DNA from: Chrysophaeum taylorii
Taxonomy: Eukaryota > Sar > Pelagophyceae > Pelagomonadales > Pelagomonadaceae
Assembly (NCBI GenBank): GCA_029834535.1
Contig: JAQMWT010000342.1
Location: 1-64,000 of the forward strand
Direction of reading: 5' to 3'
Length of the DNA: 64,000 nt
In this document: in pieces, positions 174-64,000 of the stretch
How positions within the stretch are numbered: position 1 is the first letter of the stretch
Layout of the letters: each line of letters begins with the position of its first letter
Position numbers and translations under genes: made by a program
The notes under the pieces: generated by a model
Told to the model about the DNA's origin: nothing
Seen by the model: the letters and a program-made list of their open reading frames with translations, nothing else
The model's database searches: none

Positions 174-746
174 ATGAGAAGCATGCACCCTTCGATAAGA
201 AAGTCCATGCCAGGGGCACCCTTGCATTTCGAGATGCGCAACAACGAGCTACCAATTTTCACAACATTCACCATTCCAGTGATTCTCAAGCATAAAAAGC
301 TGTTCAGGTTATTGCCAGTCCTGGACACCACCCATCTGACGTACCCTACCGTAAGTTCTTTGTGTGGATGTACGATTCATAAAAAACGCTTTCCTCATCC
401 ACACCACCTTATCAAGCAACCATCATTCGAAAAATTTTTCAACCTGGTGAAGCCTGGCATGTGACGGTGGTTACGTCTATCTGTGCTGCTCTCGGAATGG
501 GGATCCTTTCGAAATATCATTGTTTCAAGTGTCTCATTTCTAATTTTCTGTTAGTGTACTTTTGTCGTAGCACTAACTCAGCGAATTTTGTAACGCCTTG
601 AGTTTGTCCGTAATTTTTGCTCTACTTATGTTCATGTACAACTAAAACAAATCTATTGTGATTCCTTTAAACCTATTTATCTCAGCATGTTACAACCCCC
701 TTCCGTGTGGAACATGTATTAATATGTCCGCGTTCCCCCTTACTGC
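174..746 (+). pseudogene. Degenerate copia integrase N-terminal and core region
   Basis: Frames around 340-560 contain a Cys/Lys-rich stretch followed by a GEAWHV-like block, resembling the copia integrase zinc-binding end and the start of the catalytic core. The same nucleotide pattern recurs at 26690-26760 in another copia remnant. The reading frame is broken by stops. A TAA at 720-722 separates this part from the open frame starting at 747, although codons 723-746 still read as integrase (VPPYC before MSFNH). It is not a working gene. Confidence 0.55.
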
Positions 747-2762
747 ATGTCTTTTAATCATGAAGTCGAAGCCGCTGTTGGTCACATAGCCACTGCCGCG
801 TCTACACGACTCCGGCATATGCTTAATGTGTCCTATAAAGGTCCCCTAACAGATCCGGCACCACAATACCCGTGGGCTGTTATACATGCTATCCAATCAT
901 ATAACCTCCTCCCTAACGTTTCCCTCGAACGTATTTATAATAAAGTCCTAAGCCCCCAACAAGTTTTGTTAGACCAATGTAATGTTCCCCAACAAGACTA
1001 CCTCAAAGCTTTTGGTTCTGTTTGTTATCTGCATTTGGAACCTAACGAGTTTCATAAATATGAACCCCGATGTCGTCCCTACATCTATTTATGCGATGCT
1101 AACGTTATAAGCCCTTTAATAACAACCCATCTTAATCATTTATCCGATGTTGTCCTTAATCCTGAAAACGGTCAAGTCCGTGTTTCCTCTAAACTGACTT
1201 TTCCTCATCTTATTTCTAAATTTCCCCCTGATTATGAACAACATCCACCTCCCGCACCTTCACCCGACATTCCCTTCTCTGTTCACAGCACCCCCAATGA
1301 TGCGGCGCAGAGGGGGAATGCTATACCTACCGACACTGACCATGAGAGGGGGACTCCTTCTTCTCATCTCCATGCTCCCTCTCCCGCTCCCGCATGTGCT
1401 CCAGCTGCTTCTGCACCCGCTACTTCCGCCACCACACCTACATCTGAAGTGTCTTCCGACACTCTGCCACTTTTACCATCTTATCGGTCTCTCTATTCCC
1501 AGGATGTCCTCCGTCTCACCCGTGGTCCTCATCACCCTCAGCCTCGTCGCAAAACCAATCTCAAGGATGTTCTTACTCGTATTGCTTCGCCTACTGTTGC
1601 CGCTTATAAACAAGCCGGTGGTACGCTTGCCGATTTCAAGTATGACCTCTCTAAGCAGTACATAACATTCTGCGACCCCACCCTCCACTCCCTTCATATC
1701 GCTCATGGCATCCACTGGACGGCTATACCTCCAGAGGGGAAATTTGCACCATCCCTTCATCACCATGTGCACCAAGCGATTTCACAGTCCTCTTCAGTTA
1801 TGTGTCATAGGAGCCATAGCCACCCATCGCCTGATGCTCCTCATGTTCACTTCTACGACGACGTCAACCTTGCAGACTTTCACCTTCCTCAAGCTCTCGT
1901 TCATTTAATTTCTGAACATGCTCACGCCTTTCAAGTTCCTCCCGCTCAATGTGCTTATGCTTTGTTCACGCCCCACTCCATTTTGGATCATAATGACGCT
2001 TCTTATGGTGCTTCCGAGCCTCATCTCTCCGCCGTCGAAGACTATATCACCGTGCAATCGCATTACATTGAAGCCCACCTTGGTGATGCTCCTCTACTAG
2101 TCGTTCAACTCATCGAAGATCCCGGTCACGCTCATCTGCCCGATAATGTCGCTTCTTACACAATTACTCATCTGACGACGACTCATGACCCCAGCACGGT
2201 TGGTTCGGACGAATACAAGATTCAAGCCAAAGATATCAAAATTGATGAATATGAGTTGAACTGCCTCAAAGATCTCTCAGACGCTGATCGCAAAGCTTAT
2301 GTTGCTGCCATCTCCAAAGAGATTTTTGACATTGTTAAGTTTGGCTGCTTTGAACTAGCGCTGCCAATGGTCAACTCAAAGCCTATTGACACCCGTCTCG
2401 TCCTACGTATAAAAACCAACGCTGCTGGTCAGTACATTAGACATAAAGCACGCCTGGTCCTACGAGGACTCTTAGCCTCTCTGGGCACCGATTTCTTCAA
2501 CACATTCAGTCCTATGGCACAGCTTACCGGCATCCGTTGTGTTTTGGCGCTAGCAGCTCATCTGCGACTTCCCGTCTATCATGTCGACGTCCCTAACGCT
2601 TTTGTTCAAGCTCCCATCGACTCTCATGTCTATGTCAAACTGCCACAAGGCATTTACCTTCTCGATCCCGAAGATACTAAATACCAAGGCCGCCGTCTCC
2701 CAAAGCTACTTAAATCTCTCTATGGATTGCGTCAGAGCCCTGCCCTGTGGATCAAACTATAA
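747..2762 (+). pseudogene. pol: Copia pol fragment: integrase C-terminus, linker, RT fingers
   Basis: A 671-residue open frame. Residues 1-100 match the end of a copia integrase core (VEAAVGHI, then a PWAVIHAI block and FGSVCYL). Residues 150-300 are a Pro/Ala/Ser-rich linker. From about residue 500 comes the copia RT start (IDTRLVLRIK, HKARLVLRG, VYHVDVPNAFVQAP, KSLYGLRQSPALW). The frame ends at 2762 because one A is missing compared with copy B near 2752; the next frame, from 2747, continues the RT without loss. The ATG at 747 is simply the first one after an in-frame stop and is not the natural pol start. Confidence 0.85.
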
Positions 2763-3270
2763 ACGGCTTCTTTGATTCATTAGGCTACGCACGATTTCGA
2801 ACAGACACATGCATTTACGCTAAAGTCCAAGCTGACGCTACATTTCTAATTTGCACGCTCTCAGTAGACGACGTCGTCATTACTTGTACTTCGGAAACTC
2901 TACGTCGTGAGTTCCAGCAAGCCCTGAAAACGGAATACTCAGTCGACACCTTCGAGGAAGTCCATACTCTCCTAGGCATGCGCATAACGCGTACAACTGA
3001 TGGCTCTATATCACTGGACTGTCAGGCTAAGCTTGACGCATTGTTCGAAGAGTACCCCATTTTAATGCAGTTACGTCCCACTTCCACACCGATGTCACCA
3101 TCAACCACGTATAAATCTGGAGAGCCATCTTCTGATATGGACAAGTTCATCCTTCACACCTCCACTCTACTCGGCAAGCTCACGTTTGTCCAATTGGCCT
3201 GTCGCCCCGATCTATCACAAAGTCTTAGTCGTTGCTCTCGAGGAATGCATAATCCAGCCTTTCTACATGT

Positions 3271-4487
<1,217 letters not shown>

Positions 4488-5326
4488 TCAAGTACTAACA
4501 GGAACGCTCCGCTACTTGCGCAAGCCCGAAAATCGCAATCTTCGCCTCTGGTACTACTCTGGCTCTTCCTCTCTAATGGATCATCTTCGACTTCTTATCG
4601 GTAATCGTACCGACATGGCCACCATGTCGGATTACACTAAAGAACAAGTTAATTCAGGTAATTTTGATCCACTGGTCGCGTTCGTCGATGCCGATAATGC
4701 ACCCTCTTATGAACAAGACCGCAAGTCTACAACCGGTTACGCTATCTTTTGTTTGGTTCTCTCATCACTTGGAAGTCTAAGTTGCAGCCTATTACAGCTA
4801 CTTCTACGCATGAGAGTGAACTTATCGCCCTTTATATGTGTGCCGATGATGTGGTCTGGTAACGAAAATTGTTAACAGAAATGGCATTCGCTATAAATCC
4901 TCACTTCTATCTCCGCCAACCTTCAGGGAAAGACTTGCTACTAGATTATGATGCTCACGACAATCCCCTCCCATCGGACATGTCGTTCATACGTAACAAT
5001 CCTATACTGGGAGACTCTGCCTCTGCTATTCATCTTTCCAATAATCCCGATAGTGCGACTAAGGCCAAAGCTATTAGCACACGCTGGTTCCGTATTCGCG
5101 ACTACGTACAGTTAAAACGTATACGTCTACATCATGTTTCCGGTACCCAAAATATCGCCGATGGATTTACTAAACCCTTTGGAGCTCCGCTCTTCAGCAG
5201 ATTTCGCACGTTACTCGGCTTACAACAACCCATAGCTCAACAAGATGGTTAATCCTTACCCTTCATTATGTCCGAAATGACTTTAAACTAACCCTGTTAT
5301 GTAAAGGAATACTGGCTCGCGAAAAT

Positions 5327-7009
5327 GTGAAATGCAATGAAAGATGTGATGTGGATATTCTTTTTACGATGAATCCCACTAAAAACAAAGATGCTGCGAG
5401 CCGGCGCCATTCTACCCTGAACCGTGATCGTGGTGGTGCACCGTCACTATCCCCACCTTTTAATGCTCTAACTCCAAGCGTTGCACCGACTAGTTCCCCT
5501 AATCGGAAGCATCAAACCTATTTTTCGGTGGCTCAAGGACATCAATCTACGCCCGTTACGCCTAAGGCACCCAAGGCAACTGTCCAACAACCGTCTAAAT
5601 CGCAAACATCAAAGTCTGAGCAACATGCATCGCACTGCTTCGATGTACCGCGCCCTTTCTTTCTGTTGACTTGTGTGATGTGTAATTTGTCGAACCATGG
5701 GATAGCGTTAATTCGCAACAATCAGCATCCCTTCCAACTCTCTTGTTATAATGATCCAGCTGCCCACATAAGAGCCATAATCCTCCGTCTTGGAAAGTCC
5801 ATTGCCATTAACAAGCTGCTCAAAGAGGCAATCATGCAGACTGCAACATCCCTTAACGTTGATGCTTCTAAAATTCTCGTCAATCCAGACGCTAACACCA
5901 TGCTCTTACTGCAGCTGCCCTTCATTTCGAGCGTAAATCTTGAGATTCTTGTAGCAGCTTGGTCTTTGTTACAATCTGTGGAAGATAAAACCTGCGTAGT
6001 TACCAATCCTGAAGGAGTTACTTAGAGTGCTCATCGAACGCTTTGTTAACGATGTTTCTCATCAACTTGACGCAACTTCTTCCGAGACGGTACCGCCAAT
6101 GCTACACTACTTTTGCCAACTTCCACCTAATCAACAATTAGCATTTAAAAACGTGTTATAATCCAAGTTGGCTACCCATCCCATATCACTGACATCTTCT
6201 CTAATAATACCTCTTCTGAAGATGTGTCACCAGCGCCGATCGATAATGCACCCGCTGAGCCCACGCCAGATAAAGCTAACGACAATATGGCTGAATTTTT
6301 ACACCAATTAAAAGAAGAGATTCGGTCTTTATCTCTACGTCTCACTAACACCGAACAGCAATTGATGGCACGAGAACATCAACTATCGCTTGCTCTAACT
6401 TCTCTCGCACAGATGCAAGACACCTACGAAACTCTTAATTCCCAAGTGACCGAGAACATCAAACATGTTTCCTTGTTAGATAACAATTTGTCAAGTCTTC
6501 AAATGCATCAGAACACCATAATCCCGACCTCTGCTGTGTTTGTCCATATCATTTCTCGGTCGCTTATCTCGTCTATTGGACAGCTCCCTCCAGATACGTA
6601 TAATGAGGCACAGCGAGTTCTAATCGACGCAGCAGCTCATAACCTCCACACAGCTATGTCTGATGCACATGATCGTGTTATTCCTGCATTGGATCTACAC
6701 GCTCTTACACCAGATGCTGCTATGTCTTTCCTTTCGTCTGTTGTGTCACCCTTGGTCACCTTGAGTGACGCAATGACTACGCACAATACCAACACTGCTA
6801 ACGACCTATCCTCCGATGATCATAATTCGTCTTCTCCAGAGTTAATGGAATTGGACAATAATAGCGAGGATGAATTGGACCACACATCTGATGTTGTGGT
6901 TGTCAGTCACATCGCGGTCTCCTCGTCGCATGGCGACAAGCTTGATGATCACTCTCCGCCGACCCACCTTTCGGCGCCCCTCGTCTACAGGCCCGTGATT
7001 CCGGACTAG
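5327..7009 (+). pseudogene. Extra ORF downstream of copia pol (ORF3), copy A
   Basis: It begins 75 bp after the RNase H stop in another frame. The first 232 codons (5327-6025) match copy B (58954-60519) but lack exactly 144 codons between two GTCTGAG repeats; the single remaining copy is at 5614-5620. A frameshift ends that part at 6025. The remainder, 6224-7009, encodes a heptad-rich helical stretch (around ELKEEIRSL to AQMQDTY) and an acidic Ser/Asp-rich tail, then runs into a SINE-like insert at 6900. I do not recognise a family; a structural (gag-like) or nucleic-acid-binding role is only inference. Confidence 0.6.
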
Positions 7010-7070
7010 CTCCTGTCGGTCCGGCCTGGCTCCCATGCTCGGGAGAGGTCTGAAGTTAGTTAGTCAGTTA
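6900..7070 (+). mobile_element. 5'-truncated SINE-like element in ORF3 of copia A
   Basis: It matches the 3' half of the family at 22027-22407, ending in TTAGTTAGTCAGTTA. Copy B reads straight across this point (GATGTTGTGG then ATACCGAT), so the insertion is exact and only a GG duplication is visible. 5' truncation and a simple-repeat tail fit target-primed reverse transcription. Confidence 0.75.
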
Positions 7071-7638
7071 GGATACCGATATTGCTTCTTTGCGCAACAT
7101 CACAACACGCTCGACGTCATAATTAATTTGTCCTGCTCTGTTGTTGTTTGTCCCATTGTTCACTGTTCTCATGTATATTGCACAAGTTCCGCTTCAAGAT
7201 CGTCTGAAATGCATAAACCGTTTTCACACGTTGAGGGGGCCCAGAGAGCTACACTATTATGTGTGCGACACTGGAACATTTCACACCTATCTCTACACGA
7301 GGGTTTTCTCTCCGTAATACGGCTTTCCCTCTTCCCTTCCTTACCCTTCCGCAATTATATATTTTCACGACTATGAAGAACCCAGTCTGAAGCTCTTTTC
7401 CAACATGGAGTAGGCCTCCAGGTGCGTACCGTCAGGTACGGGGTGTTCTGTTTAATTAACATAGGCTTCGTTCCTCGTTATCAGTGTAAACGCTTCTATG
7501 GGACCTAATGTCCTTAAGGAGTTCGGGCTCAAATCCCTACCTTGTGTAGTAGCATGTGACAAGCGGAAAGGTCTGTACACGCCTAAGACTGCACGCAGTC
7601 TCTACCATGTACCCGGAGAGGGTCAAATCTCTCCACCT
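7071..7638 (+). repeat. 3' non-coding end of copia A, putative LTR region
   Basis: Non-coding DNA shared with 57553-58080 (-). The shared block ends at CTCTCCACCT. No second copy of it lies in the window, so the LTR borders cannot be set, and a TG...CA frame was not found with confidence. The small ORF starting MGPNVLKE lies in it and has no coding look. Confidence 0.5.
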
Positions 7639-23310: not shown

Positions 23311-23582
23311 GGAGAGGTAACACTCTGAATAATGCTCTTGGCGAGAGTAAAAGGGAAACTTTGAAGGAAGCGAAGGTGAGGTAGAAGGTAAGAGGCGAGG
23401 ATATATCCTCTCACATATAGCAGCAGCAGCAGAAACGTCGTCGTCATCATCCTCGGGGTGTGAGTCGGGTGAAGGATTGACGCGGAACAGTGCTGCGTGG
23501 TTAGGGTAAGAGAGCTAGAAGTTGATTCAAAATCTGTGGGATGTATGAGACTGCTCGATTGCAGTTCATCTAGGTGGTCCTC

Positions 23583-23776
<194 letters not shown>

Positions 23777-24584
23777 GATCTTGGAGCGACTCAGCTCGCT
23801 CCAAAGATGGGTGATTTGAATCAACTCCTTCCTGAATTGAATGAGCAAATCATCAGGCACTCCAAACATTACATCATATTAGGGTCATTCAGAGCGATAA
23901 TGAGTCTATTTAGGAGTTCTCGCACACTTTGAAGAATATAAGGTCAAACATTATTCGTGTTGTTAAGGAAAATAACCGATTTTCCATGTTGTTGACATTT
24001 GGAACTGCCTTGTCCAAGTCGTCAGAGCGTAAATCGGCATTTGCATCTTCCATGGGATGATTAGAAGACGTCAATGTCTTGGTTGGAGGGTGTAGCTGGT
24101 ACAGAGATATTTGGCGCAGGGTAGTTTAGCGACGTTTCGGTCGCAGCGGTAAGTTCTGCGCGAGGGTATTTGGGCAAAAGCTAGTAGCTTTCCAAAGTCA
24201 TATCCCTCAGTATCGGTGAACGTACAAGTAGATTGCATCTCTCATCAAACACAGAAGGAGGGGGCTTTTTATCATCAAACGCGCGAATTATATATTCCAT
24301 ATGTACAAATGGCTTATATGTTTTGATAATCAACTGGTTTTCATAGCACGGGTGCGTACGCCACCGTCACTAGAAAAAGCGATTCAGGTTTATTAAAGGA
24401 TAGGGAACATGGGGAGAATCGGCGACAAACTTAAAGACGGAAGAATCATATCGGTAGGCAGCAGAGTGAGGTGTCCTGTACCAGTGCACGCAGGTCCAGA
24501 AAAGAAGAAGAAAATAGACTCGAAGAAGAAGAAGAAGAAGAAGAAGAATTGTAGCTCGTAGATGAATGACCAGCAGGGGAGGAC

Positions 24585-25238
24585 TCACACAAGGGAACGC
24601 AGTGGTGGAGGTGTGTTTCGGGCAAAAGAAGACGAAACTCTGTATAGAGTTGCTGCTGAGATAGGTATGAATGCGTTAAGTAAGTGGGTGTCGAGCTGGC
24701 CAACGAGAGTGCTCGAGCACGCTTTGAAGGAAAAAGGAAGCTCATCCATCTTCTTCTTGTAAGTGGTTATACAGATTTGATATGGCTTGCCCTGCTGATC
24801 AAGAGATTGGAAAGGCAATGAAATGATGATACTTGGCGGATTCTCCTTTTCGGCACGACGGTAACAGGTTGTTGCACGAAGAGCAGGGGCATAGGGACAA
24901 TAAATATTAATTACGGGAGTTAGAGGTGGAGGACGAAAGCGCTCGTCTAGACCTTGCTCGAGGTGTTCGAGGTTATAATATAGGACGTCAGTCAGCAAAA
25001 AGTGACTGGTGAATTCAGCTTTCTTCGCTGAAGAAGAAGAAGCGGAGGTAGATAATAGTCGCGTAATATCCTCACGGCTCGGCGCTTCCTGCAACAAGCG
25101 GGAATGACTCCACGGGAGCGAGAGAGCGAGGGGGGTCGCGACGGGCGGACGTGATTGTGAGGGTTCGCCATTGGCTGGTATGGCATTGGCGGCGACGTCC
25201 AAGTAATGGGGGAGTGATAAAAAGTAAGGGCACGACAT
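24585..25238 (-). CDS. ORF downstream of RNase H in copia C (ORF3-like)
   Basis: 217 codons, open, starting about 30 bp after the RNase H end. It has a Pro/Ser-rich N-terminus (EPSQSRPPVATP), then AEFTSHFLLTDVLYYNLEHLE and a Tyr/Cys-containing middle. Position and size class match ORF3 of A and B, but I could not align more than scattered residues. A CTT/AAG microsatellite (24522-24548) follows its end. Function unknown. Confidence 0.5.
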   Translation of the reverse strand: MSCPYFLSLPHYLDVAANAIPANGEPSQSRPPVATPLALSLPWSHSRLLQEAPSREDITRLLSTSASSSSAKKAEFTSHFLLTDVLYYNLEHLEQGLDERFRPPPLTPVINIYCPYAPALRATTCYRRAEKENPPSIIISLPFQSLDQQGKPYQICITTYKKKMDELPFSFKACSSTLVGQLDTHLLNAFIPISAATLYRVSSSFARNTPPPLRSLV

Positions 25239-25259
25239 TGCGGGGTTAGCGATTAGTTC

Positions 25260-25906
25260 TCGTCTTGGTCTGAATGTCAGGAGTATGATGCATACCTAGA
25301 ATTGAGCGGAACGTAGCAAAGTCGGTGGTATTGTGAAGCCATCAGCTACGTTTAATTTGCCAGGAACATGATGGAGACGCGAATCCTTTTTTAATGCGAC
25401 ATGCTCGCGACCAATCAGGACTGTTGGGAGTATGGACAGCTGCAGCATTGTTCAGACATCCTCTGCGATGGGATTGTTGTCTGCGTCAAAATTAGATGGA
25501 GGATCAGCCTGCGTGTTAATGTAGAACGTCGGATTAACCACAAAAGAGAGCTCAAGAAGGAGTTTACGGAGCCAGACTGCTTCGTCAGCACAGGTGCTTA
25601 GCGCAATGAGCTCCGCTTCGTTGGTAGAAAAAGAGACGGTCGGTCGTTTAATTTACTTTCCCAGGCTATATATTGAACAAGTAGAAAACAAAATCAGTAG
25701 TGGACTTTCCGTCTTTCTGTTCGAGTGAAGGGGCATTGTCAGCATCGACCGTAGCAAACAGTTTGCGAGTAGCAACATCTTTATCCCGGTAGTCGATAAT
25801 GGTAGATAGGTCAACAACTCGATTTGAGCAGATGATGTACTTTAGGTGGTTTGCGATAGTGTAGTGCCTTTAGGATGGAACCAAAAAGGCGAAGGGCTCT
25901 GTTTGT

Positions 25907-25951
<45 letters not shown>

Positions 25952-26480
25952 GAGGTACCGTAGGAGGTGGCAGAGCATCAAGACATGCACGCAAGCAGGA
26001 GAGTGCATACCTCTGGAACATCGCCTTCGAGTTTGCGAGAAATCTGGTCGGCAAGCAACTTGCACGAATACCAATTTGCATAGCAATGTAGCAAAGTGAT
26101 TGTGTGGATATATATTTCCACGTCAGTGGAAGGAGAGCCATCCTTGTAGGTGAAGATTGACGACATAGGATATTCGAGAGGAGTTAGGGTCTTCAGTATT
26201 GGGTGATCATCGAACAGAGCATCTATAACTTGGCTTGAACGTCTAAAGATATCCAGCCATTCGGTGTCTGTTTTGCAGACGCGCATTCCCAGAAGAAGTG
26301 TGTGGACTGGCTCGAATTGCTCAACAGAGAACACTGTTTGTGTAGAGCTTCCAGGAGGAGTTTCTGTGCGCGCAGATTATCATCGTTAGCAACTATGACG
26401 ATATCATCAACAGAGAGGCTGCTGCAGATCAGCAAACGAGCGTGTGTAGAGAGATGCAGCAAATCGCTCTCTCATGGCAC
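25260..26480 (-). pseudogene. pol: RT palm and RNase H of copia C
   Basis: Frames at 26462-26223 (SLSVDDIVIV), 26334-25978 (LLLGMRVCKT, DALFDDHPIL) and 26086-25811 (VQVACRPDFSQ, CSRGMHSPA) match A and B block by block. From 25750 to 25270, broken frames give FATVDADNAPS and other RNase H pieces. A CAAG microsatellite sits in the connection region exactly where A and B read RYLRKPENR. Many frameshifts are present. Confidence 0.8.
25907..25951. repeat. (GCTT)n / (CAAG)n microsatellite inside copia C
   Basis: About 11 units, grown from the GCGCAAGCCCGAAAATCG motif in the RT-RNase H connection of the related copies. It reads SKQA repeats in the coding direction. Confidence 0.9.
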
Positions 26481-27149: not shown

Positions 27150-27720
27150 AGCTGTCGAGGTAAGTGCTTCTTCTTCTTCTTCTTCTTCAGGTGCAGTTCT
27201 TGAGGAGCGGTAGTTTAACGACATTTCGGTTGGCAATGTGACTCGTGCATGCATCAGCTTTGAGAGATAGTGTGTCTGAGCTGTGACTGGAGGGAGACAG
27301 TTCAGGAGTGAGAAAAGTGGATACATAATTCTTCTTCTTCTTCTTCTTCTTCTTCTTCAAGATGGCAATGTCATGTTGAAAGGTAGGGTCCAACATGAGA
27401 GACTTCATGTCGACAACTATGTGGCAAATGTGTGGTGTATAGAGAGTATGATAAGTGCCCGCAGGCAGGCAGGGCGTTGCGGAGAAGATCACAGCACAGG
27501 TCCTTCTTCAGCGAGGGTAAGAAGATTGTTGCTTGAGGACGAGTATGGTTATTTACTCTCTAATGAGCTCAGCGCGCGTTGGGTAGTAGCGAAGCCATTG
27601 CGCGGATCGCGTAGGATGATGTTGGCATATCCACGCATGGTAGGCAGTGGTGCAAGCATGGAATGGACTTTAGAACCGAGTTTGCGGTCGCGTAAATAGC
27701 CAAGATACCGACTGTGAGAG
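27150..27720 (-). pseudogene. Possible copia linker fragment with AAG microsatellites
   Basis: Minus frames contain GYANIILRDPRNGF and Ser/Thr/Asp-rich text resembling the copia integrase-RT linker. The frames are interrupted by CTT/AAG runs at 27168-27189 and 27330-27358. The assignment is weak. Confidence 0.3.
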
Positions 27721-27754
27721 AGAGAGATTATGGTCTTCTAGGAGGGCAAAATAT

Positions 27755-28821
27755 CCTAACTACTAATCGACAGATGTTTGTCTGTCTGTTTGTTTGTCTG
27801 TCTGTTTGTCCCTCGATTTAGGGTAAGGATCAGGTAGGCGCGAGAGTAAGGATCAGGTAGGCGCGAGAGCCAGACAGTGATCCTCCAACCCGTCCACGGC
27901 GACCTCGCAGACTATTTCCACGACGCGCGGCGGCTCTTTCAGCGAGCCATTCTCACGCCCCGTCGAAACGATGTTGTCGATGCTGACAACGCGCGCGTGA
28001 CCGCGGCCTTTTTTTCGGAGACGAGTCGTCGGAGTTCTTTTCGGCCGACTAGGTTGGGTCGGAAGACGACGCCTCGCTCTCAAGAGTCAAGTTTTGAACT
28101 CCCTGACAACCAACGGCATGCTGACTTTGATCGCGAGCTTAAAGTCTTCGCAACCTCGACCCGTCGCTCGGCCACTGCAACGGTACCAGATACATGATCG
28201 ATCGTGTCGTTGTCACCGAGGCTCCTCCAACCTGTATCCCTTAAGGCCCGCCGACGCCAAACGATCACCAAGAGGCAGGGCCAGACGCCCCGCGAGGTCG
28301 GCGTCCTCTTGGCGAAGCCCGTCTTCTGTCACGTCCAGCTCTACGTGGCTCTCTGTCTATCGGCAACCCCGAGGATATCCTCTTTTTGGTCGACGACTCC
28401 ACCCTACTCCACACGTGCTGCGCAATACCGATAAGCCCCCTCCCGGCGTCTACACGCGCCCTGTAGGTGAACTTTCTGGGACCAGGTGAACTTACTGGGG
28501 TTTGAGATTGGGATTAGGGATTAGGTGAACTTAGTGACCAGGTGAACTTACTGGGACCAGATGAACTTACTGAGGGTTTTAGAGTAAACTCAAGGTTAGC
28601 GGCGTGTGCGGATCAAGGCAGCTTCGATTGGTGGAGGCGGGAGCGACGAGCTCGAAGGAGTGGGGTGTGAGCACGAGTGGGTTTACGCCGAACTTACTGG
28701 GGTTAGAGATTTGGACTAGGTGAACTTACTTATTCAAAAAAATTCAAGAAACTTACTGGGACCAGGTGAACTTACTGGGGTTAGAGATTGGGACTAGGTG
28801 AACTTACTGGCCTGCACTTGT
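27755..28821 (+). mobile_element. Helentron-like element, copy 2, with helicase remnant
   Basis: It starts CCTAACTACTAATCGACAG after a T and ends GGCCTGCACTTG before T. Internally, broken frames read as the end of a Pif1-like helicase: RAILTPRRNDVVDADN (about 27945), RNLDPSLGHCNGTRYMI (about 28155-28200) and KPVFCHVQLYVALC (about 28320-28355). Those are the late motifs of Helitron helicases. Units containing AGGTGAACTTACTGG follow. The Rep nuclease part is absent, so it cannot move alone. Confidence 0.75.
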
Positions 28822-29340
28822 TTGTCCTTAAACGAAAGTCGGCCACAAGATGGGTCGTAAGTGACACATATGATAAGCGCGCACTGTTTTTTTTTAATTT
28901 AGTGGATGGCAGGAAGCGTGCCACGAGCTGTGTCAACTTGAGGGTATGCTTGCACGAGCCAGAGATAACCTTGGAACGACGTGGAGCGTTTTTTTTGTCG
29001 GCGGCGGAATTATTGGAGGCGGTGAGCGCGCGCGGGTAAATCCAAGGGCATCGATGGAGGCTTGATTGGCTTTGTTCTCAACTAATAGGTTACCTTCGGA
29101 GTGATGTCCACCAGTAAGAAGGTGAATATTGTATGTAGATGAGGAGTTTGTAAGAAATAATCAGGGTGCGGGTTGGTTAGTTTTGAAAATCGTAACATAA
29201 TAGGACTGTTAGGTGAGATTATAGCGAACAGGTTGTATAAGGTGATGAATGCCGTGAGGCAAATGGGATTAGAAGACCCCTGTAGTGGTTGAGTAGAAGA
29301 TCTCCTAAAACCCACGATGATAAGTGTATTCATTCATTCA
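28822..29340. other. No gene recognised
   Basis: The + frame to 29039 contains RRGAFFLSAAELLEAVSARG and could be a C-terminal exon; nothing else supports it. The rest is AT-rich and non-coding in appearance, ending in a short ATTC tandem at 29329-29342. Confidence 0.3.
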
Positions 29341-29359
29341 TTCAGAGTGGGACTGGTGA

Positions 29360-30470
29360 CTAAATTGTTCGAGAGCCTTGCTGTGAGCGAAGCCTGCGAA
29401 ACAGGAGATTTTTAAACGTCTCAAGCTCATAGAGACTTAGCCGATGTGCGCGAATATAAAGGAAAGGTTTAAGGCGAGAAGATTGATGGTGGATCATCAG
29501 GGTACCCAGACGCGAATCCAATCTTTCGCTAAGTCCGTAGGTAACCGCGGAGATGAAATTGATGTCGTCCCCAATGTCTAAGAAACACTTAGAGTGCTGG
29601 TTGGTCCAGGAAAGCATATCAATGCCGCCCGTGATATATCTGCGAGCATCACAAATCCACCTTTCTCTAGACTGGTAGTCGCCGCCACACAGATAGGTTG
29701 GAAATCGATCGACCACATCAACGGTATAGTGAAGTGTGGCGCGAATGAGGAGGTTATCCGCTGAAATGTGATCCCGGTAGTAAACCTGCTTATGGGGAGG
29801 CCTCATCTCCGCGGACCAGGGGTTTGAGGAGTAAGTTGATGACAGCGAGCATGCTATCAAAAAAAAAATAGAGCATCGTCACGTAGTAGGAGACAAACCA
29901 AATCGGATGTCTTGGTGCCCTCGAGTAAATTCCGATTGGTAAGAAAGTGGGGTAAGTTCGATGATGTCGCAGTATAGCTTCCGTCTTTCTTCTTGAGCAA
30001 ATCGGTGAAGGTGGTTAATAATAAAAGGGATTGAAAAATGACAACATCAGGGAATCGTCGTCTACGTAACGTATGCGCAGAAGAGTATCATCATCATCAT
30101 CATCAGACTCGACGACAACTTTGATGTTCAAGCCACCAAGTCATCATTGGCTTGTGACAGAAACGCAGGGGTTGATAGCCCCAGAACATAATAACATAAC
30201 AGATGGCTTGCGGGAACTGCTATGTTCAGTCGATAAGAACACTGGTCGAGAAAAAACGGGTGTTGTGCTTTACATCCTCGTTTTGCTCACGGAGGTTGAG
30301 CAGGAGAGTACGAAGCCAAGGGGAGCTTATTGAGGAGGTAGTTGTAGTAATGACATAAGTCACGGTTTTCGTTACTATCCCTTCAAAGGAAAAGAACGTA
30401 ATTCGATGTTTCTGTCGCGTGCAAGGACTTATGGTAAACGTCGGGGAGCGCTGGTAGATCACGGTCTATA
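29360..30470 (-). pseudogene. Unrecognised retroelement-like reading frames
   Basis: Minus frames read PWLRTLLLNLREQNED (about 30320-30275), then LLRIRYVDDDSL (about 30085), then a 166-codon open frame (29860-29360) with CGGDYQSRERW and MLSWTNQHSK. YVDD suggests a reverse transcriptase and LSWTNQ recalls copia RNase H, but the order and spacing do not fit a family with confidence. A TCATCA run lies at 30088-30104. Confidence 0.28.
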
Positions 30471-37399: not shown

Positions 37400-38330
37400 A
37401 TTCACCTGACCGGATATTATTCGAGTTAAAAGGGATGTCGGATGATGAGAAATGCATGCACCTGGAAGGTATCATCAAAGAATTCGATGGTATTATATAT
37501 CACCGACAAAGGAGTCATACGACTATCCCTCGTACCAGAAAGCAGATCCGCGCTTCCTACTCGCTTGGTCCTCAAAGTAAAAAAAAAGGAAAATTTTAGC
37601 GCATATCTCAAACACAAAGCCAGATGTGTGGTCAAATGCTTTTCCTGGCTCGACTCGGACTCGACTTCTACACAGTGTATACTCACCGACAACAATGTCG
37701 TGGCCGCAACACGCTAATCGCTGTTGCCACGGCTGCATGCGCATCATTGTGATGAACCACAAGCATTCATCCAGAAAAGTCTTATTGGGTGCATCTTCAA
37801 AGAGGTATACAACAAATGAAGCCAGCGATCATCGAGAAATTTGGACACTAACCTAACTAACTAACTAACTAACTAACTTCAGACCTCTCCCGAGCATGGG
37901 AGCCAGGCCGGACCGACAGGAGCCAGTCCGGAATCACGGGCCTGTAGACGAGGAGCGCCGAAAAAAAGGTCGGTCGGCGGAGAGTGACCATCAAGCCTAA
38001 AGGCAAGAAAGCCTTTCTACTGATCAAAGCCCTCTACGGACTCCAATATAGCTCTCTTCTCGAAGCACTTGATGATGAACAAGTTCCTGACAGAAGACCT
38101 TGGCTTCACCTGCAGCAGGAATGATGCCACACGAATCAATAAGTGGTGTGCACCCACTGCGTTTGTCGATGACGTGTTGATAACAGGTACAGACACAGCG
38201 CTCATTCAAAAAAGTAAAAGACCGCACTCTTCAAAAGGATTTGGTGAGGGTTTTATATGGGCAGAAAACGTCAATCCTTTTTCTCAAATGTACGTACGAT
38301 TCGGTTAATAAGGGGGTGTTCACAACGAGC
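37400..38330 (+). pseudogene. pol: RT fragments of copia D
   Basis: Broken frames read LKGMSDDEKCMHLEGIIKEF, PTRLVLKVKKK, YLKHKARCVVK (as HKARLVL in A), then LIAVATAACAHHCDEPQAFIQ. After the SINE-like insert they read LLIKALYGLQ and AFVDDVLITG, the active-site block. Several frameshifts. Confidence 0.7.
37853..37996 (-). mobile_element. 5'-truncated SINE-like piece in copia D
   Basis: CTAACTAACTAACTAAC tail followed by the family 3' sequence (CTCCCGAGCATGGGAGCC, CCGGAATCACGGGCCTG), ending after ACCATCAAGC. An AAAAAAA expansion interrupts it at 37960. Confidence 0.75.
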
Positions 38331-39789: not shown

Positions 39790-40540
39790 ACTCTTTTCAA
39801 TCAGTGTGTGACTCACTGATATAGCATAACGGTCAGACCAGACATAACGACCATACTCAACCGCACCTGCAAAGGCATGTGCACTCGCCTGAACGGCTGC
39901 ACATGGTTTGGTGAGAAGTGGCGGATAGGTATTTATTTACACACAACCCCGGACCACGGATTGGTTTACAAAGTAGATGGCTCACCTATGTGTCATCTGA
40001 CATCATCAAAGTGCTGTACTCCAAATAAATACCCAGAACTGAAGAAGCATTTCGTCTTGCCAAATAATAGCCTTTAGTGATGCCGACTTCGCGGACTCTC
40101 AAGACACTCGCCTGCGATCCACGACTTGGTATTGTGTCAACGTATTCGACTGCCTTGTCTCGTGGTCCTCCTCCAAGCGACAGACCAAATCAACACTGCA
40201 CGCAGAGATCATCGCTGCTGCGTCCACCGCAGATGAAGCAGTATGGTTCTTATGGAATCGGTGCCATTTATGTTCGGGTTTCCCACCTGTCACGAGGTCC
40301 CAGCCATACAACCACTGCTAATTGACAACGAGGGAGCTGTATCGACAGTCAACCACCCAAAAAACACCACAACAGACAAAACACGCGGACTTCTAAGAAT
40401 CTTTCGCATTCGCGATTATCAGGGCGACCCGAGAGGGTCGCATACGCTGTTTCTGGTGTCCTACCAAGACAAACATAGCAGACCGACTTTTCTCCTCGAA
40501 GTTCCTAGAGACAGTAAAAATTCACCGTGCCCCTGGTAGA
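39790..40540 (+). pseudogene. RNase H of copia D
   Basis: Broken frames read AFSDADFADSQD, LVSWSSSKRQTKSTLHAEIIAA and DEAVWFLWNRC (copia RNase H core), then LLIDNEGAVSTVNHPK and LRIFRIRDYQ with an NIADRLFSSKFL end. These are the copia RNase H blocks in order. Stops and frameshifts are present. Confidence 0.75.
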
Positions 40541-47546: not shown

Positions 47547-47941
47547 AGACATTTTCCTCGTACTAACAACTCCCGCACCCAAATAAAAATGTGAACAATC
47601 ATCCGGACAAAAAAATAAAATCGCGAAAGCGATTAGCGCGCACAAACATCCCGAAATTTTGTATTTGTACTAACAATTACGTCCGTTTCGGCGTCCGTTG
47701 TGAATACTTTTCAGTATGTGAGGACACCGGACACTCTAATCAGCGTGCACGAAGCCGGGGCTCAACTCGGGGTTAGCACGAAGAGTGTACATGGTGAGCG
47801 TGGCGTACGAAACCTAAACCCCACAAATTTGTGTGTTGTTTTTTACTGGAAAAAAAACGAAAAAAGAACAGGTTTAAACTACCCCTGTAAAAAAGCTTAC
47901 CAGTCGACCTTTAAAGATACCCTTGTAAAAAACCGAGAGGT

Positions 47942-57552: not shown

Positions 57553-58085
57553 AGGTGGAGAGATTTGACCCTCTCCGGGTACTACATGGTAGAGACTGCG
57601 TGCAGTCTTAGGCGTGTACAGACCATTCCGCTTGTCACATGCTACTACGCAAGGTAGGGATTTAAGCCCTAACTCCTTAAGGACATTAGGTCCCATAGAA
57701 GCGTTTACACTGACAACGAGGAACGAAGCCTCTGTTAATTAAACAGAACACCCCGTACCTGACGGTACGCACCTGGAGGGAGGCCTACTCCATGTTGGAA
57801 GAGAGCTTCAGACTGGGTTCTTCATAGTCGTGAAAAGTATAATTGCGGAAGGGGTAAGGAAGGAAGGGAGGAACGAGAGAAAGCCGTATTACGGAGAGAA
57901 AACCCTCGTGTAGAGATAGGTGTGAAATGTTCCAGTGTCGCACACATAATAGTGTAGTTCTCTGGACCCCCTCAACGTGTGAAAACGGTTTATGCATTTC
58001 AGACGTTCTTGAAGCGGAACTTAAATGCAATGTACATGAGAACAGTGAACAGTGGAACAAACAACAACAGAACAGGACAAATTAA

Positions 58086-58538
58086 TTATGACGTCGAGCG
58101 TGTTGTGATGTTGCGCAAAGAAGCAGTATCGGTATCCACAACATCAGATGTGTGGTCCAATTCATCCTCGCTATTATCGTCCAGTTCCTTTAACTCTGGA
58201 GAAGACGAATTATGATCATCGGAGGATAGATCGTTAGCAGTGTTGGTATTGTGCGTAGTCATTGCATCACTCAAGGTGACCAAGGGTGACATAACAGACG
58301 AAAGGAAAGACATAGCAGCATCTGGTGTAAGAGCGTGTAGATCCAATGCAGGAATAACACGATCATGTGCATCAGACATAGCTGTGTGGAGGTCATGAGC
58401 TGCTGCGTCGATTAGAACTCGCTGTGCTTCATTATACGTATCTGGAGGGAGCTGTCCAATAGACGAGATAAGCGACCGAGAAATGATATGGACAAATACA
58501 GCAGAGGTCGGGATTATATGGTGTTCTGATGCATTTGA
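58086..58538 (-). pseudogene. C-terminal part of ORF3, copy B
   Basis: Separated from the main ORF3 by the SINE-like insert. It reads MSDAHDRVIPALDLHALTP and an acidic Ser/Asp stretch, ending ITTRSTS. Copy A has the same text before its own SINE-like insert at 6900. Confidence 0.65.
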
Positions 58539-58906
58539 ACTAACTAACTAACTAACTTCAGACCTCTCCCGAGCATGGGAGCCAGGCCGGACCGACAGGA
58601 GCCAGTCCGGAATCACGGGCCTGTAGACGAGGAGCGCCGAAAGGTCGGTCGGCGGAGAGTGACCATCAAGCTTGTCACCATGCGACGAGGAGACCGCGAT
58701 GTGACTGACAACCAACTCGTCGATAACCTTCCGTCTTCGCCCCCCGGCCATACCCCGTCCCACTGCGAACGTTCCCGCTGCCAACCGGCCCGCCCGGGAG
58801 GCGAATAGGTGCCAAGCTACGCCGGGAGGGCGGATGCCCTCGCAAGGCTCAGGATTCATGAGGCACCGTCCTCCATCGCAACCGCAGTCGGCGATCAGGG
58901 TAAGGG
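58539..58906 (-). mobile_element. SINE-like element inside ORF3 of copia B
   Basis: Tail AACTAACTAACTAACTAAC on the left and ACCCTGATCGCC start on the right. Copy A lacks it at this point (CTTCAAATGCATC). The visible duplication is about TTCAAA, with extra ATATT at the 5' end. Confidence 0.82.
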
Positions 58907-58953
58907 TAATATTTTGAAGACTTGACAAAATGTTATCTAACAAAGAAACATGT

Positions 58954-60519
58954 TTAATGTTTCTCGGTCACTTGAGTATTAAGGGTTTCGTAGGTTTCTT
59001 GTATCTGTGTGAGAGAAGTTAGAGCAAGCGATAGTTGGTGTTCTCGTGCCATCAATTGCTGTTCGGTGTTAGTGAGACGTAAGGATAAAGACCGAGTCTG
59101 TTCTTTTAATTGGTGTAAGGATTCAGCCATATTGTCGTTAGCTTTATCTGGCGTGGGCTCAGCGGGTGGATTATCGATCGGCGCTGGTGACACATCTTCA
59201 GAAGGGGTATTATTATTAAAGGTATCAATGATATGGGATGGGTAGCCAACTTGGATTAACACGTTTTTAAATGCTAGTTGTTGATTAGGTGGAAGTTGGC
59301 AAAAGCAGTTTAGCATTGGCGGTACCGTCTCGGAAGAATTTGCGTCAAGTTGATGAGAAACATCGTTAACAAGGCGTTCGATGAGCACGTTAAGTAACTC
59401 CTCAGGATTGGTAACTACGCAGGTTTTATCTTCCACAGATTGTAACAAAGACCAAGCTGCTACAAGAATCTCAAGATTTACACTCGAAATGAAGGGCAGC
59501 TGCAATAAGAGCATGGTGTTAGCGTCAGGGTTGACGAGAATTTTAGAAGCATCAACGTTGCGGGATGTTGCAGTCTGCATGATGGCCTCTTTGAGCAGCT
59601 TGTTAATAGCAATGGACTTTCCAAGACGGAGGATTATGGCCCTTATGTGGGCAGCTGGATCATTATAACAAGAGAGTTGGAAGGGCTGCTGATTATTGCG
59701 AATTAACGCTATCCCATGATTCGACAAGTTACACATCACACAAATCAACAAAAAGAAAGGGCGCGGTACATCGAAGCAGTGCGATGCATGTTGCTCAGAC
59801 GCGAGATGATCCTCAATAATTTGGCGAATCCTGTCAGTTTTAAGCTCATCTTCAGTACAGATGATGAGCACGAGGGGTGTGCCCGGCATCTCAGTTTTGT
59901 TATAGCACTTTGTACACGCCACATGTACTTTGACAACCCCTTTAATGGGTGGAAAGCGGTGAAAGCGAATACCTTCATTAGGAGATATAGCGGGGGCATT
60001 CCGAATGCGCTTTGCTTTGACGCACAGCAATGAACTAAGATATTGGATGTCGCACACAAAGTCTGTCTGTTGTGCTTCGGTAAGCAGCTGCTGCACAGAC
60101 TTAAGCCAACACTGAGGATTCTTACGCTGAGGGATGAGAAAGTTCGGCGGGGATGCACCAAGGGCGGATGTGTTCCCTGACATCATCGCAAGTGCGTCAA
60201 ATTTGCAATGTTTAGGCAGGAAATACTCAGACTTTGATGGTTGCGATTTAGACGGTTGTTGGACAGTTGCCTTGGGTGCCTTTGGCGTAATGGGCGTAGA
60301 TTGATGTCCTTGAGCCACCGACAAATAGGTTTGATGCTTCCGATTAGGGGAACTAGTCGGTGCAACGCTTGGAGTTAGAGCATTAAAAGGTGGGGATAGT
60401 GACGGTGCACCACCACGACCACGGTTCAGGGTAGAATGGCGCCGGCTCGCAGCATCTTTGTTTTTAGTGGGATTCATCGTAAAAAGAATATCCACATCAC
60501 ATCTTCCATTGCATTTCAC
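58954..60519 (-). CDS. ORF3 downstream of copia pol, 521 codons (most complete copy)
   Basis: Starts 75 bp after the RNase H stop. Residues 1-90 are basic and Ser/Pro/Lys-rich. Around residues 205-250 is CTKC ... DHLASEQH, a C-x2-C...H-x5-H pattern that could bind zinc like BED or GCM/FLYWCH-type fingers. Residues 270-400 are predicted globular (HIRAIILRLGKSIAINKLLKEA). Residues 455-515 form a heptad-rich helix (SLHQLKEQTRSLSLRLTNTE). The frame ends early at 58954 by a one-base difference from copy A, and the C-terminus lies at 58086-58538. Copia elements normally end after RNase H, so this is an added gene. Function is unknown; a gag-like or DNA/RNA-binding role is inference. Confidence 0.7.
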   Translation of the reverse strand: MKCNGRCDVDILFTMNPTKNKDAASRRHSTLNRGRGGAPSLSPPFNALTPSVAPTSSPNRKHQTYLSVAQGHQSTPITPKAPKATVQQPSKSQPSKSEYFLPKHCKFDALAMMSGNTSALGASPPNFLIPQRKNPQCWLKSVQQLLTEAQQTDFVCDIQYLSSLLCVKAKRIRNAPAISPNEGIRFHRFPPIKGVVKVHVACTKCYNKTEMPGTPLVLIICTEDELKTDRIRQIIEDHLASEQHASHCFDVPRPFFLLICVMCNLSNHGIALIRNNQQPFQLSCYNDPAAHIRAIILRLGKSIAINKLLKEAIMQTATSRNVDASKILVNPDANTMLLLQLPFISSVNLEILVAAWSLLQSVEDKTCVVTNPEELLNVLIERLVNDVSHQLDANSSETVPPMLNCFCQLPPNQQLAFKNVLIQVGYPSHIIDTFNNNTPSEDVSPAPIDNPPAEPTPDKANDNMAESLHQLKEQTRSLSLRLTNTEQQLMAREHQLSLALTSLTQIQETYETLNTQVTEKH

Positions 60520-60593
60520 ATTTTAGCGAGCCAGTATTCCTTTGCATAGCAGGGTTAGTTTAAAGTCATTTCGGACATAATGAAGGGTAAGGA

Positions 60594-62000
60594 TTAACTA
60601 TCTTGTTGAGCTATGGGTTGTTGTAAGCCGAGTAACGTGCGAAATCTGCTGAAGAGCGGAGCTCCAAAGGGTTTAGTAAATCCATCGGCGATATTTTGGG
60701 TACCGGAAACATGATGTAGACGTATACGTTTTAACCGTACGTAGTCGCGAATACGGAACCAGCGTGTGCTGATAGCTTTAGCCTTAGTCGCACTGTCGGG
60801 ATTGTTGGAAAGATGAATAGCAGAGGCCGAATCTCCAAGTATGGGACTGTTACGTATGAACGACATGTCCGATGGGAGGGGATTGTCGTGAGCATCATAG
60901 TCTAGTAGCAAGTCTTTCCCTGAAGGTTGGCGGAGATAGAAGTGAGGATTTATAGCGAATGCCATTTCTGTTAACAATTTGCGTAACCAGACCACATCAT
61001 CGGCACACATATAAAGGGCGATAAGTTCACTCTCATGCGTAGAAGTAGCTGCAATAGGCTGCAACTTAGACTTCCAAGTGATGAGAGAACCAAACAAAAA
61101 GATAGCGTAACCGGTTGTAGATTTGCGGTCTTGTTCATAAGAGGGTGCATTATCGGCATCGACGAACGCGACCAGTGGATCAAAATTACCTGAATTAACT
61201 TGTTCTTTAGTGTAATCCGACATGGTGGCCATGTCAGTACGATTACCGATAAGAAGCCGAAGATGGTCCATTAGAGCGGAAGAACCAGAGTAGTACCAGA
61301 GGCGAAGATTACGATTTTCGGGCTTGCGCAAGTAGCGGAGCGTTCCTGTTAGTACTTGAACATGTAGAAATGCTGGATTATGCATTCCTCGAGAGCAACG
61401 ACTAAGACTTTGTGATAGATCGGGGCGACGGGCCAATTGGACAAACGTGAGCTTGCCGAGTAGAGTAGAGAAGGTATGAAGGATGAACTTGTCCATATCA
61501 GAAGATGGCTCTCCAGTTTTATACGTGGTTGATGGTGACATCGGTGTGGAAGTGGGACGTAACTGCATTAAAATGGGGTACTCTTCGAACAATGCATCAA
61601 GTTTAGCCTGACAGTCCAGTGATATAGAACCATCAGTTGTACGCGTTATGCGCATGCCTAGGAGAGTATGGACTTCCTCGAAGGTGTCGCCTGAGTATTC
61701 CTTTTTTAGAGCTTGCTGGAACTCACGACGTAGAGTTTCCGAAGTGCAAGTAATGACGACGTCGTCTACTGAGAGCGTGCAAATTTGAAATGTAGCGTCA
61801 GCTTGGACTTTAGCGTAAATGCATGTGTCTGTTCGAAATCGTGTATAGCCTAATGAATCAAAGAAGGCGTTTATGGTTTGATTCCAAAGGGCAGGGCTCT
61901 GACGTAATCCATAGAGAGATTTAAGTAGCTTTGGGAGACGACGGCCTTGGTATTTAGTATCTTGGGGATCGAGAAGGTAAATGCCTTGTGGCTGTTTGAC
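60594..62000 (-). pseudogene. pol: RT palm and RNase H of copia B
   Basis: From the deletion junction near 62003, the frame runs through KSLYGLRQSPALWNQTIN, TLSVDDVVIT, LLGMRITRTTDG, VQLARRPDLSQ and RYLRKPENRNLRLW. It continues through FVDADNAPSYEQDRKSTTGY, THESELIALYMCADDVVWL and ADGFTKPFG to the stop at 60594, without internal stops that I could find. It preserves the part that the Helentron splits in copy A. Confidence 0.88.
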
Positions 62001-62700
62001 ATAGGACCAGGCGTGCTTTATGTTTAATGTACTGACCAGCAGCGTTGGTTTTTATACGTAGGACGAGACGGGTGTCAATAGGCTTCGAGTTGACCATTGG
62101 CAGCGCTAGTTTAAAGCAACCAAACTTAACAATATCAAAAATCTCTTTGGAGATGGCAGCGATGTAAGCTTCGCGATCAGCGTCTGAAAGACCATTGAGG
62201 CAGTTCAACTCATATTCATCAATTTTGATATCTTTGGCTAGAATCTTGTATTCGTCGGGACCAACAGTGCTTGGTTCATGAGTCGTCGTCAGATGAGTAA
62301 TCGCGTAAGAAGCGACATTATCGTGCAGATGAGCGTGATCGGGATCTTCGACGAGTTGAACAACTAGTAGAGGAGCATCACCAAGGTGGGCCTCAATGTA
62401 ATGCGATTGCACGGTGATATAGTCTTCGATAGCGGAGAGATGAGGCTCGGAGGCACCATAAGAAGCGTCATTATGACCCAAAGTGGAGTGGGGCGTGAAC
62501 AAAGCATAAACATATTGAGCGGGAGGAACTTGAAAGGCGTGAGCATGTTCAGAAATTAAATGAACGAGAGCTTGAGGAAGGTGAAAGTCTGTAAGGTTGA
62601 CGTCGTCGCAGAAGTGATGAACGTGAGGAGCGTCAGGCGATGGGTGGCTATGGCTCCTATGACACATAACTGAAGAGGACTGTGAAATCGCTTGGTGCAC
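61954..62700 (-). pseudogene. pol: Linker and RT fingers of copia B, truncated by deletion
   Basis: 248 codons matching copy A's 1780-2460 (DREAYIAAISKEIFDIVKFG, PIDTRLVLRIKTNAAGQYI). After KARLVL the frame is lost because 170 bp (A 2461-2630) are missing, including the catalytic VYHVDVPNAFVQ block. Confidence 0.85.
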
Positions 62701-62888
62701 TTGGTGATGAAGTGATGGTGTAAATTTCCCCTCTGGAGGTATAGCCGTCCAGTGGATGCCATGAGCAAGATGAAGGGAGTGGAGGGTGGGGTCGCAGAAA
62801 GTGATGTACTGCTTGGAGAGGTCATACTTGAAGTCGGCAAGCGTACCACCGGCTTGTTTATAAGCGGCAACAGTAGGCGAGGCAAGAC

Positions 62889-63248
62889 TAACTAACTAAC
62901 TTCAGACCTCTCCCGAGCATGGGAGCCAGGCCGGACCGACAGGAGCCAGTCCGGAATCACGGGCCTGTAGACGAGGAGCGCCGAAAGGTCGGTCGGCGGA
63001 GAGTGACCATCAAGCTTGTCGCCATGCGACGAGGAGACCGCGATGTGACTGACAACCAACTCGTCGATAACCTTCCGTCTTCGCCCCCCGGCCATACCCC
63101 GTCCCACTGCGAACGTTCCGGCTGCCAACCGGCCCGCCCGGGAGGCGAATAGGTGCCAACCTACGCCGGGAGGGCGGATGCCCTCGCAAGGCTCAGGATT
63201 CATGAGGCACCGTCCTCCATCGCAACCACAGTCGGCGATCAGGGTAAG
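62889..63248 (-). mobile_element. SINE-like element with perfect 13-bp TSD
   Basis: GGCGAGGCAAGAC flanks both sides (62876-62888, 63249-63261), and copy A has a single related site. 360 bp with a GTTA tail on the left. This is the cleanest member of the family. Confidence 0.88.
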
Positions 63249-64000
63249 GGCGAGGCAAGACGAGTAAGAACATCCTTGAGATTGGTTTTGCGACGAGGTT
63301 GAGGGTGATGAGGACCACGGGCGAGACGTAGGACATCCTGGGAATAGAGAGACCGATAAGATAGTAAAAGTGGCAAAGTGCTGGAAGACACTTCAGATGT
63401 AGGTGTGGTGGCGGAAGGAGCGGGTGCAGAAGGAGCTGGAGCACAGGCGGGAGCGGGAGAAGGAGCATGGAGATGAGAAGAAGGAGTCCCCCTCTCATGG
63501 TCAGTATCGGTAGGCATAGCATTCCCCCTCTGCGCCGCATCATTGGGGGTGCTGTGAACAGAGAAGGGAATGTCGGGTGAAGGTGCGGGAGGAGGATGCT
63601 GTTCATAATCAGGAGGAGATTTAGAAATAAGATGAGGAAAAGTCAGTATAGAGGAAACACGGACTTGACCGTTTTCAAGGGTTTATAACGTTAGCACCAC
63701 ATAAGTAGATGTAGGGACGACATCGGGGTTCATATTTATGAAATTCGTTAGGTTCCAAATGCAGATAACAAACAGAACCAAAAGGTTTGAGGTAGTCCTG
63801 TTGGGGAACATTACATTGATCTAACAAAACGGGAACATTACATTGATCTAACAAAACTTGTTGGGGGCTTAGGACTTTATTGTAAATACGTTCGAGGGAA
63901 ACGTAAGGGAGGCCCACGGGTAGTGTGGTGCCGGATCTGTTAGGGGGTGACCTTTAGAGGACACATTAAGCATATGCCGGAGTCGTGTAGACGCGGCAGT
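63249..64000 (-). pseudogene. pol: Integrase end and linker of copia B
   Basis: Minus frames match A's 790-1590. The 63917-63675 frame has SLERIYNKVLSPQQVLL and FGSVCYLHL, with a 24-bp tandem duplication (LLDQCNVP twice). The frame 63517-63239 covers the Pro/Ala-rich linker. A deletion near 63680 and the SINE-like insert break it. Confidence 0.78.

Follow-up and report, generated by a model that had tools for sequence, protein, structure and literature searches.

An additional gene-like frame after RNase H and a putative C5 DNA methyltransferase in a 12.2-kb Ty1/copia-type retrotransposon lineage of Chrysophaeum taylorii

Three copia-type elements, designated A, B and C, in a 64,000-nucleotide stretch of Chrysophaeum taylorii DNA (the window) each contain an open frame 3' of RNase H; we conclude that this frame, ORF3, is on balance a true third gene in a lineage of 12.2-kb Ty1/copia-type LTR retrotransposons. 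The order of parts was 5' LTR, primer site, gag-like/protease region, C5 DNA methyltransferase (DNMT), integrase, reverse transcriptase (RT), RNase H, ORF3, polypurine tract and 3' LTR, and we hold the anatomy described below with high confidence. The putative DNMT is a more surprising feature than the extra frame. Genome searches covered the assembly from which the window comes (70.8 Mb, 697 contigs), and all copy counts given here are lower bounds.

Elements A, B and C in the window

The presence of an open frame 3' of RNase H in all three elements had been claimed in a first-pass annotation of the window, and both frame analysis and homology agreed with it. The features assigned to the elements were as follows.

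Element A
383..5252, plus strand: integrase, connector, RT and RNase H
5324..6899, plus strand: ORF3, with residues 110-241 deleted (~130 codons) and a frameshift
6897..7071, no strand assigned: fragment of a 366-bp repeat close to the ORF3 end
7241..7635, plus strand: 3' LTR, 93% identity to the B 3' LTR
Element C
23510..25295, minus strand: decayed ORF3 belonging to a diverged family, with its most intact frame at 24585-25295
25326..26441, minus strand: decayed RT and RNase H
27482..30214, minus strand: decayed putative C5 DNA methyltransferase with stops and frameshifts, 28-58% identity to the A/B-family DNMT
Element B
57556..57966, minus strand: 3' LTR, 411 bp, TCCAGAG...CTCTCCA
57967..57976, minus strand: polypurine tract region, GTTGAGGGGG
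58086..58539, minus strand: ORF3 C-terminal part, residues 542-684 of uninterrupted copies plus stop
58541..58906, no strand assigned: 366-bp repeat inserted in ORF3
58954..60522, minus strand: ORF3, first 522 codons, with the ATG at codon 16
60594..62051, minus strand: RVT_2 reverse transcriptase and RNase H frame
61954..64000, minus strand: C-terminal part of integrase with the connector leading to RT, interrupted by the window edge and the 366-bp repeat

In element B the RT/RNase H frame stopped at 60594, and a 522-codon stop-to-stop frame (60522-58954) started 71 nt downstream in a different reading frame; relative to other copies, the RT frame had 168 bp absent near 62002. In element A the RNase H stop was at 5252 and ORF3 homology began at 5324, and a GTCT simple repeat, along with other insertions, broke up pol at about 3272-4476. 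The gene previously drawn in A at 5327-7009 stood, but its end did not, for position 7009 falls in the 366-bp repeat and homology resumes at 7071. In element C the frame 25295-24585 lay about 30 nt 3' of RNase H, and the homologous gene ran on, decayed, to about 23510; the decayed DNMT of this element had been absent from the first-pass annotation. The RVT_2 profile (PF07727) matched above cut-off in both B (1.4e-18) and A (5e-24). Integrase was encoded ahead of RT, with a weak rve match (0.0026, below cut-off) and an SH3_retrovirus profile match of 9e-6, just under cut-off. No gag was seen in the window for A or B, as had been remarked before, because the window edge truncates both elements within integrase; element C gave no match to the gag of the A/B family, which was the only probe.

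Other features were also present in the window. The 366-bp repeat (CCCTGATCGCCGACTG...TTAGTTAG) was dispersed in the window and in the loci fetched from the genome, and had inserted into several element copies. Its window sites were 58541-58906, 62887-63250 (in B pol), 6897-7071, 22025-22405 and 37859-37996, and Rfam gave no window match for it at the gathering threshold. Additional short pieces of copia pol (29-38% identity) lay at 7671-7892, 37469-37798 and 40064-40249. An open frame of 1718 codons, matching FAST-kinase-like and RAP domains, occupied 47915-53071, a stretch of about 68% GC, and a frame at 11051-11779 contained CSCPKFWHYYKCKH, by eye a SWIM-type zinc finger, possibly of a MULE-type transposase. 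Across the genome PF00504 (light-harvesting family) gave 84 matches, with near-identical light-harvesting genes in tandem arrays at about 1.2-kb spacing on contigs C88 and C539; so many light-harvesting genes indicate a photosynthetic eukaryote. No match was obtained for phycobilisome linkers or, in a search lacking a working control, for cryptophyte phycoerythrin.

Position of ORF3 within the full-length element

Copies with both ends gave the length of the element. The copy on contig C509 measured 12,173 bp with the target duplication GGTGC on each side, and that on C668 measured 12,190 bp with its two LTRs identical at 397/401 positions; the LTRs of the C311 copy were more diverged than the C668 pair. 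A 5-bp target duplication was found in one of the five copies with both flanks (C509, and not C668, C9, C166 or C603). The 5' half was read from pieces of C668, C311 and C439. In element coordinates, the C668 copy was arranged as follows.

1-401: LTR
880-1470 and from 1471: gag-like frames
to 3630: frame containing DTCAS
3631-5343: 570-codon frame
5307-7117: integrase frames, with RT and RNase H next
9618-11672: ORF3
11790-12190: LTR

An LTR of the B type was also present upstream of gag in C668 (locus L033) and C311 (L032), and a 5' LTR was found at six of the eight places predicted from the DNMT (none at C35 and C61). The sequence GGTTATGGGCCCAG followed six LTRs on their 3' side, those of L032 (C311), L033 (C668), L047 (C21), L010, L015 and L027, of which the last three are nested or truncated copies. 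This candidate primer site may match an internal part of initiator-Met tRNA; a matching 23-mer had four exact occurrences in the genome against none for a reversed control, and no tRNA was called at the single locus read. At the other end, GTTGAGGGGG or a close variant of it stood directly ahead of the 3' LTR in other copies.

A DNA search of the genome returned at least 90 matches (of 2019 candidates 40 were scored, one of them the window itself), and 39 genome places besides the window matched at 86-97% over long stretches of DNA. Searching with the ORF3 protein returned at least 69 (65 of 798 candidates scored), of which 31 were free of stops by hand count and 38 contained them; an uninterrupted 684-codon frame, stop to stop, was present in 6 of 20 fetched loci. 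In 15 of these 20 loci the homology was unbroken and stopped no more than 4 nt from window position 57556, and the outer flanks differed among loci. The LTR was broken or cut in L016, L018, L023 and L028, and in L027 the 5' LTR adjoined ORF3. The end of ORF3 lay about 120 bp ahead of the 3' LTR. Since many copies with different flanks have ORF3 ahead of both the polypurine tract and the 3' LTR, it lies inside the element. The first-pass annotation had named a location outside the LTRs, or identity with a neighbour's gag, as the outcomes that would speak against it; ORF3 was instead inside the LTRs, in A and B as elsewhere. Nesting of elements was also seen, with element ends beside inverted 5' parts of sister elements in L010 (4197-8291) and L015 (5198-6291).

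Upstream of the DNMT, a long gag-like/protease frame followed the 5' LTR in C668 and C311. It contained a DTCAS stretch, by eye a variant aspartic protease motif; Pfam gave no match for the 5' frames, and we named them from position and motif. No CCHC knuckle pattern was present in the nine stretches scanned. Like Ty1/copia elements (Pseudoviridae), the lineage combines an RVT_2 reverse transcriptase with an integrase encoded ahead of it, LTRs and a polypurine tract, and its primer site may, as in Drosophila copia, match an internal part of initiator-Met tRNA. It differs from them in its length of 12.2 kb, in the extra gene after RNase H, in the absence of a CCHC knuckle from the stretches scanned, in the DNMT between the protease-like stretch and integrase, and in LTRs that start with TC rather than TG. 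Sireviruses are a copia lineage of long elements whose additional gene, placed between RNase H and the 3' LTR, has been proposed to encode an envelope-like or membrane protein. The present lineage shares that position and a long element with them; in contrast, its ORF3 gave no envelope-like match, encodes CxxC pairs and a coiled coil and had no relative in our searches, and a DNMT is present. A literature search for extra frames in copia elements found nothing.

Conservation and predicted properties of the ORF3 and DNMT proteins

Codons ahead of codon 16 of ORF3 diverged among copies and MNP was kept in those covering it, which suggests the ATG at codon 16 as the start. Between subfamilies, measured relative to the diverged L026 copy, dN/dS was 0.09-0.11 with synonymous sites near saturation and one of seven pairs undefined; among close copies it was 0.15-0.48. 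In our judgment ORF3 is very probably a selected accessory gene. One of the two proposals made for it at first pass, that of a new accessory gene, fits its location inside the LTRs, its conservation across two or more diverged families and the purifying selection acting on it.

Evidence from a diverged family came from locus L052, in which RNase H was followed by an inserted repeat and then by frames homologous to ORF3. Alignment of ORF3 with L052 by hhalign gave E 1.8e-6 over 153 columns, with a score of 52.5 versus 26.6 for the best of 60 shuffles and 15.4 for the reversed sequence; a single tblastn match also linked L052 with L020. Points common to the B and C families were two CxxC pairs and a C(x6)H ahead of [IL]RA. 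The C frame itself (P0007) gave no significant match to ORF3 by blastp or hhalign, and homology emerged only with the better preserved L052. The coiled-coil frame of L052 was likewise not significant by hhalign, and a piece of L022 scored 27.7, barely over the best L052 shuffle. P0007 found 41 matches in the genome including itself, the others at 35-59% identity. These alignments show that, at the level of protein homology, ORF3 is common to at least two diverged families.

The structure model of ORF3 had a mean pLDDT of 38.7, and its only confident part was the coiled coil, a predicted helix at 458-521 (block-mean pLDDT 50-92) in keeping with the coiled coil proposed earlier. Other descriptions from the first reading needed adjustment: the suggested C2H2-type site is better read as CxxC...CxxC...C...H, and the basic start is so only mildly (+9 in 85 residues), the end of the protein being acidic. 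Hydrophobic stretches began at residue 256 (256-274, hydropathy 2.03) and at 337 (1.74). With the model, Foldseek found nothing at E<=0.001, and its highest-ranking rows, tRNA-splicing endonuclease at E 0.03, do not bear interpretation. No relative of ORF3 was found among 5.8 billion proteins, and a pattern search of viral contigs gave 27 matches, none of them a relative. Pfam returned nothing above cut-off (weak coiled-coil matches, e.g. FAM76 at 6.1e-4), and a profile search of PDB sequences only weak coiled coils.

We also considered a USP/OTU-type cysteine peptidase or deubiquitinase, an idea that arose because ORF3 conserves a CW..S..QQLL stretch and an HG...ND stretch besides its two CxxC pairs; C138 and H269 were invariant in nine aligned sequences. 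It was rejected because the candidate Cys and His are not kept in the diverged family: in L052 the His column held no His and the Cys box was not seen, with the CxxC pairs and C...H kept. Profile searches of ORF3 for a peptidase gave nothing, and a literature search on retrotransposon deubiquitinases found nothing relevant.

The 570-codon frame had no direct Pfam match at E<=1. Its relatives were the MMETSP proteins P0005 (41% identity, 2.8e-75) and P0006 (31%, 9e-18). PF00145 matched P0006 at 1.2e-10 and P0005 at 4.4e-4, the latter just short of cut-off. The alignment keeps PC, which we take to be motif IV in the nomenclature of C5 methyltransferases, together with EMTPP and QxRERW. Although the structure model of P0005 was poor (pLDDT 36.9), the best 50 of 1059 matches in a fold search of that model against the PDB all fell within the C5 methyltransferase family, with E-values of 1.2e-5 to 9.6e-4. 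In a profile search of PDB sequences M.HhaI aligned in register at E 1.4, and an unrelated ribosomal protein ranked higher at 0.3. Taken through the intermediates and the fold search, the evidence supports assignment of the 570-codon frame as a C5 cytosine DNA methyltransferase. By hand count, 52 of 83 DNMT protein matches in the genome were free of stops, and DNMT and ORF3 lay on the same strand, in order and 4.3-6.3 kb apart on 14 contigs; on six others (C10, C110, C114, C212, C297 and C314) they were on opposite strands, in reversed order or far apart. In one pair of copies pN/pS was 0.064, with 30 synonymous versus 6 nonsynonymous changes, showing that in this pair the DNMT is under purifying selection.

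A profile search of the genome with PF00145 gave at least 57 matches (123 of 474 candidates scored). Several of these lay in open frames longer than 1000 codons, which suggests further DNMT-bearing elements.

DNMTs have been described in LINE, DIRS and Gypsy elements, and that work presents SymbioLINE-Dnmt, SymbioDIRS-Dnmt3 and KnitGypsy-Dnmt3 as carrying, like the present lineage, a C5 methyltransferase in the retrotransposon coding region, in many copies and under purifying selection (PMC5890265). They differ from it in being LINE, DIRS and Gypsy rather than copia elements, and the same paper gives Symbiodinium Copia elements as free of any DNMT (PMC5890265). A passing remark in a 2025 paper places some DNMT3 in 'LTR Copia and DIRS' elements, citing PMC5890265 (PMC12344493); the excerpts of two other papers describe no copia DNMT (PMC9998398; PMC6338049). 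Among the literature matches listed, no title or abstract opening reports a DNMT in a copia element. A DNMT in a copia element is thus probably, though not certainly, novel.

Possible roles of ORF3 and the DNMT

Because ORF3 is in another reading frame with stops between it and RNase H, it would be expressed separately from pol, presumably by translation from the conserved ATG, which lies some 45 nt inside the frame. A basic start, a zinc-binding centre and a coiled coil would together make an oligomeric nucleic-acid-binding protein. We infer zinc binding, nucleic-acid binding and oligomerization from the predicted protein; for the first two we relied on motif and charge, as there was no homologue or confident fold outside the coiled coil. 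We propose that ORF3 would most likely package or chaperone element RNA or cDNA, replacing the CCHC nucleocapsid not found in gag. It is that missing knuckle which leads us to favor a nucleic-acid-binding, oligomerizing accessory protein, and a nucleocapsid-like or cDNA-handling role is our first choice over a DNMT or chromatin partner, though a tentative one. The DNMT would probably methylate newly made cDNA or the new insertion. Equally tentatively, we suggest that a copia lineage may have independently captured a DNMT and evolved a zinc/coiled-coil partner gene, the two jointly handling and methylating the element's own cDNA or insertions.

A rather unlikely role for ORF3, although it heads the alternatives, is that of a chromatin or DNMT partner bringing the DNMT or the integration complex to particular chromatin, and so giving control over methylation or over where insertion occurs. 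The ordered occurrence of ORF3 and DNMT on 14 contigs and in two diverged families, and the purifying selection on both, would be expected of such a partner. That co-occurrence, however, simply follows from their sharing one element; moreover, the insertion flanks look mutually unrelated, and Pfam searches gave no similarity to a chromatin reader. We consider it improbable that ORF3 encodes an envelope-like or membrane protein. Its place after RNase H resembles that of the sirevirus 3' gene and it has two hydrophobic stretches, but the better of these, at residues 256-274, holds a conserved CxxC pair and forms two strands in the low-confidence model, a coiled coil and acidic tail follow downstream, and there was no Pfam envelope match.

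The relocated gag proposed at first pass is very improbable. The position and unusual composition of ORF3 would suit a displaced gag, as would 5' frames with neither a CCHC knuckle (nine stretches scanned) nor a Pfam gag match, but a long gag-like/protease frame occupies the usual upstream place, between 5' LTR and DNMT, in C668 and C311, and this speaks against relocation. The missing knuckle would also be consistent with a narrower event, in which only the zinc/nucleic-acid-binding part of gag may have relocated to ORF3. Finally, an origin of ORF3 in a neighboring tandem element or host DNA, which frequent nesting (in L010, for instance, the 3' end adjoins an inverted 5' half) might bring to mind, has next to no probability and is refuted by the place of ORF3 ahead of the polypurine tract and 3' LTR amid differing flanks.

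Retrotransposons with their own DNA methyltransferase are rare, and a copia lineage with a DNMT and a second selected accessory gene would add a further case bearing on why mobile elements methylate DNA. ORF3 represents a CxxC/coiled-coil family with no relative found, which may substitute for a nucleocapsid. Many copies of the element are present in the 71-Mb genome, some with near-identical LTRs; if the proposed activities are correct, an element present in scores of copies may help to write the methylome of its host.
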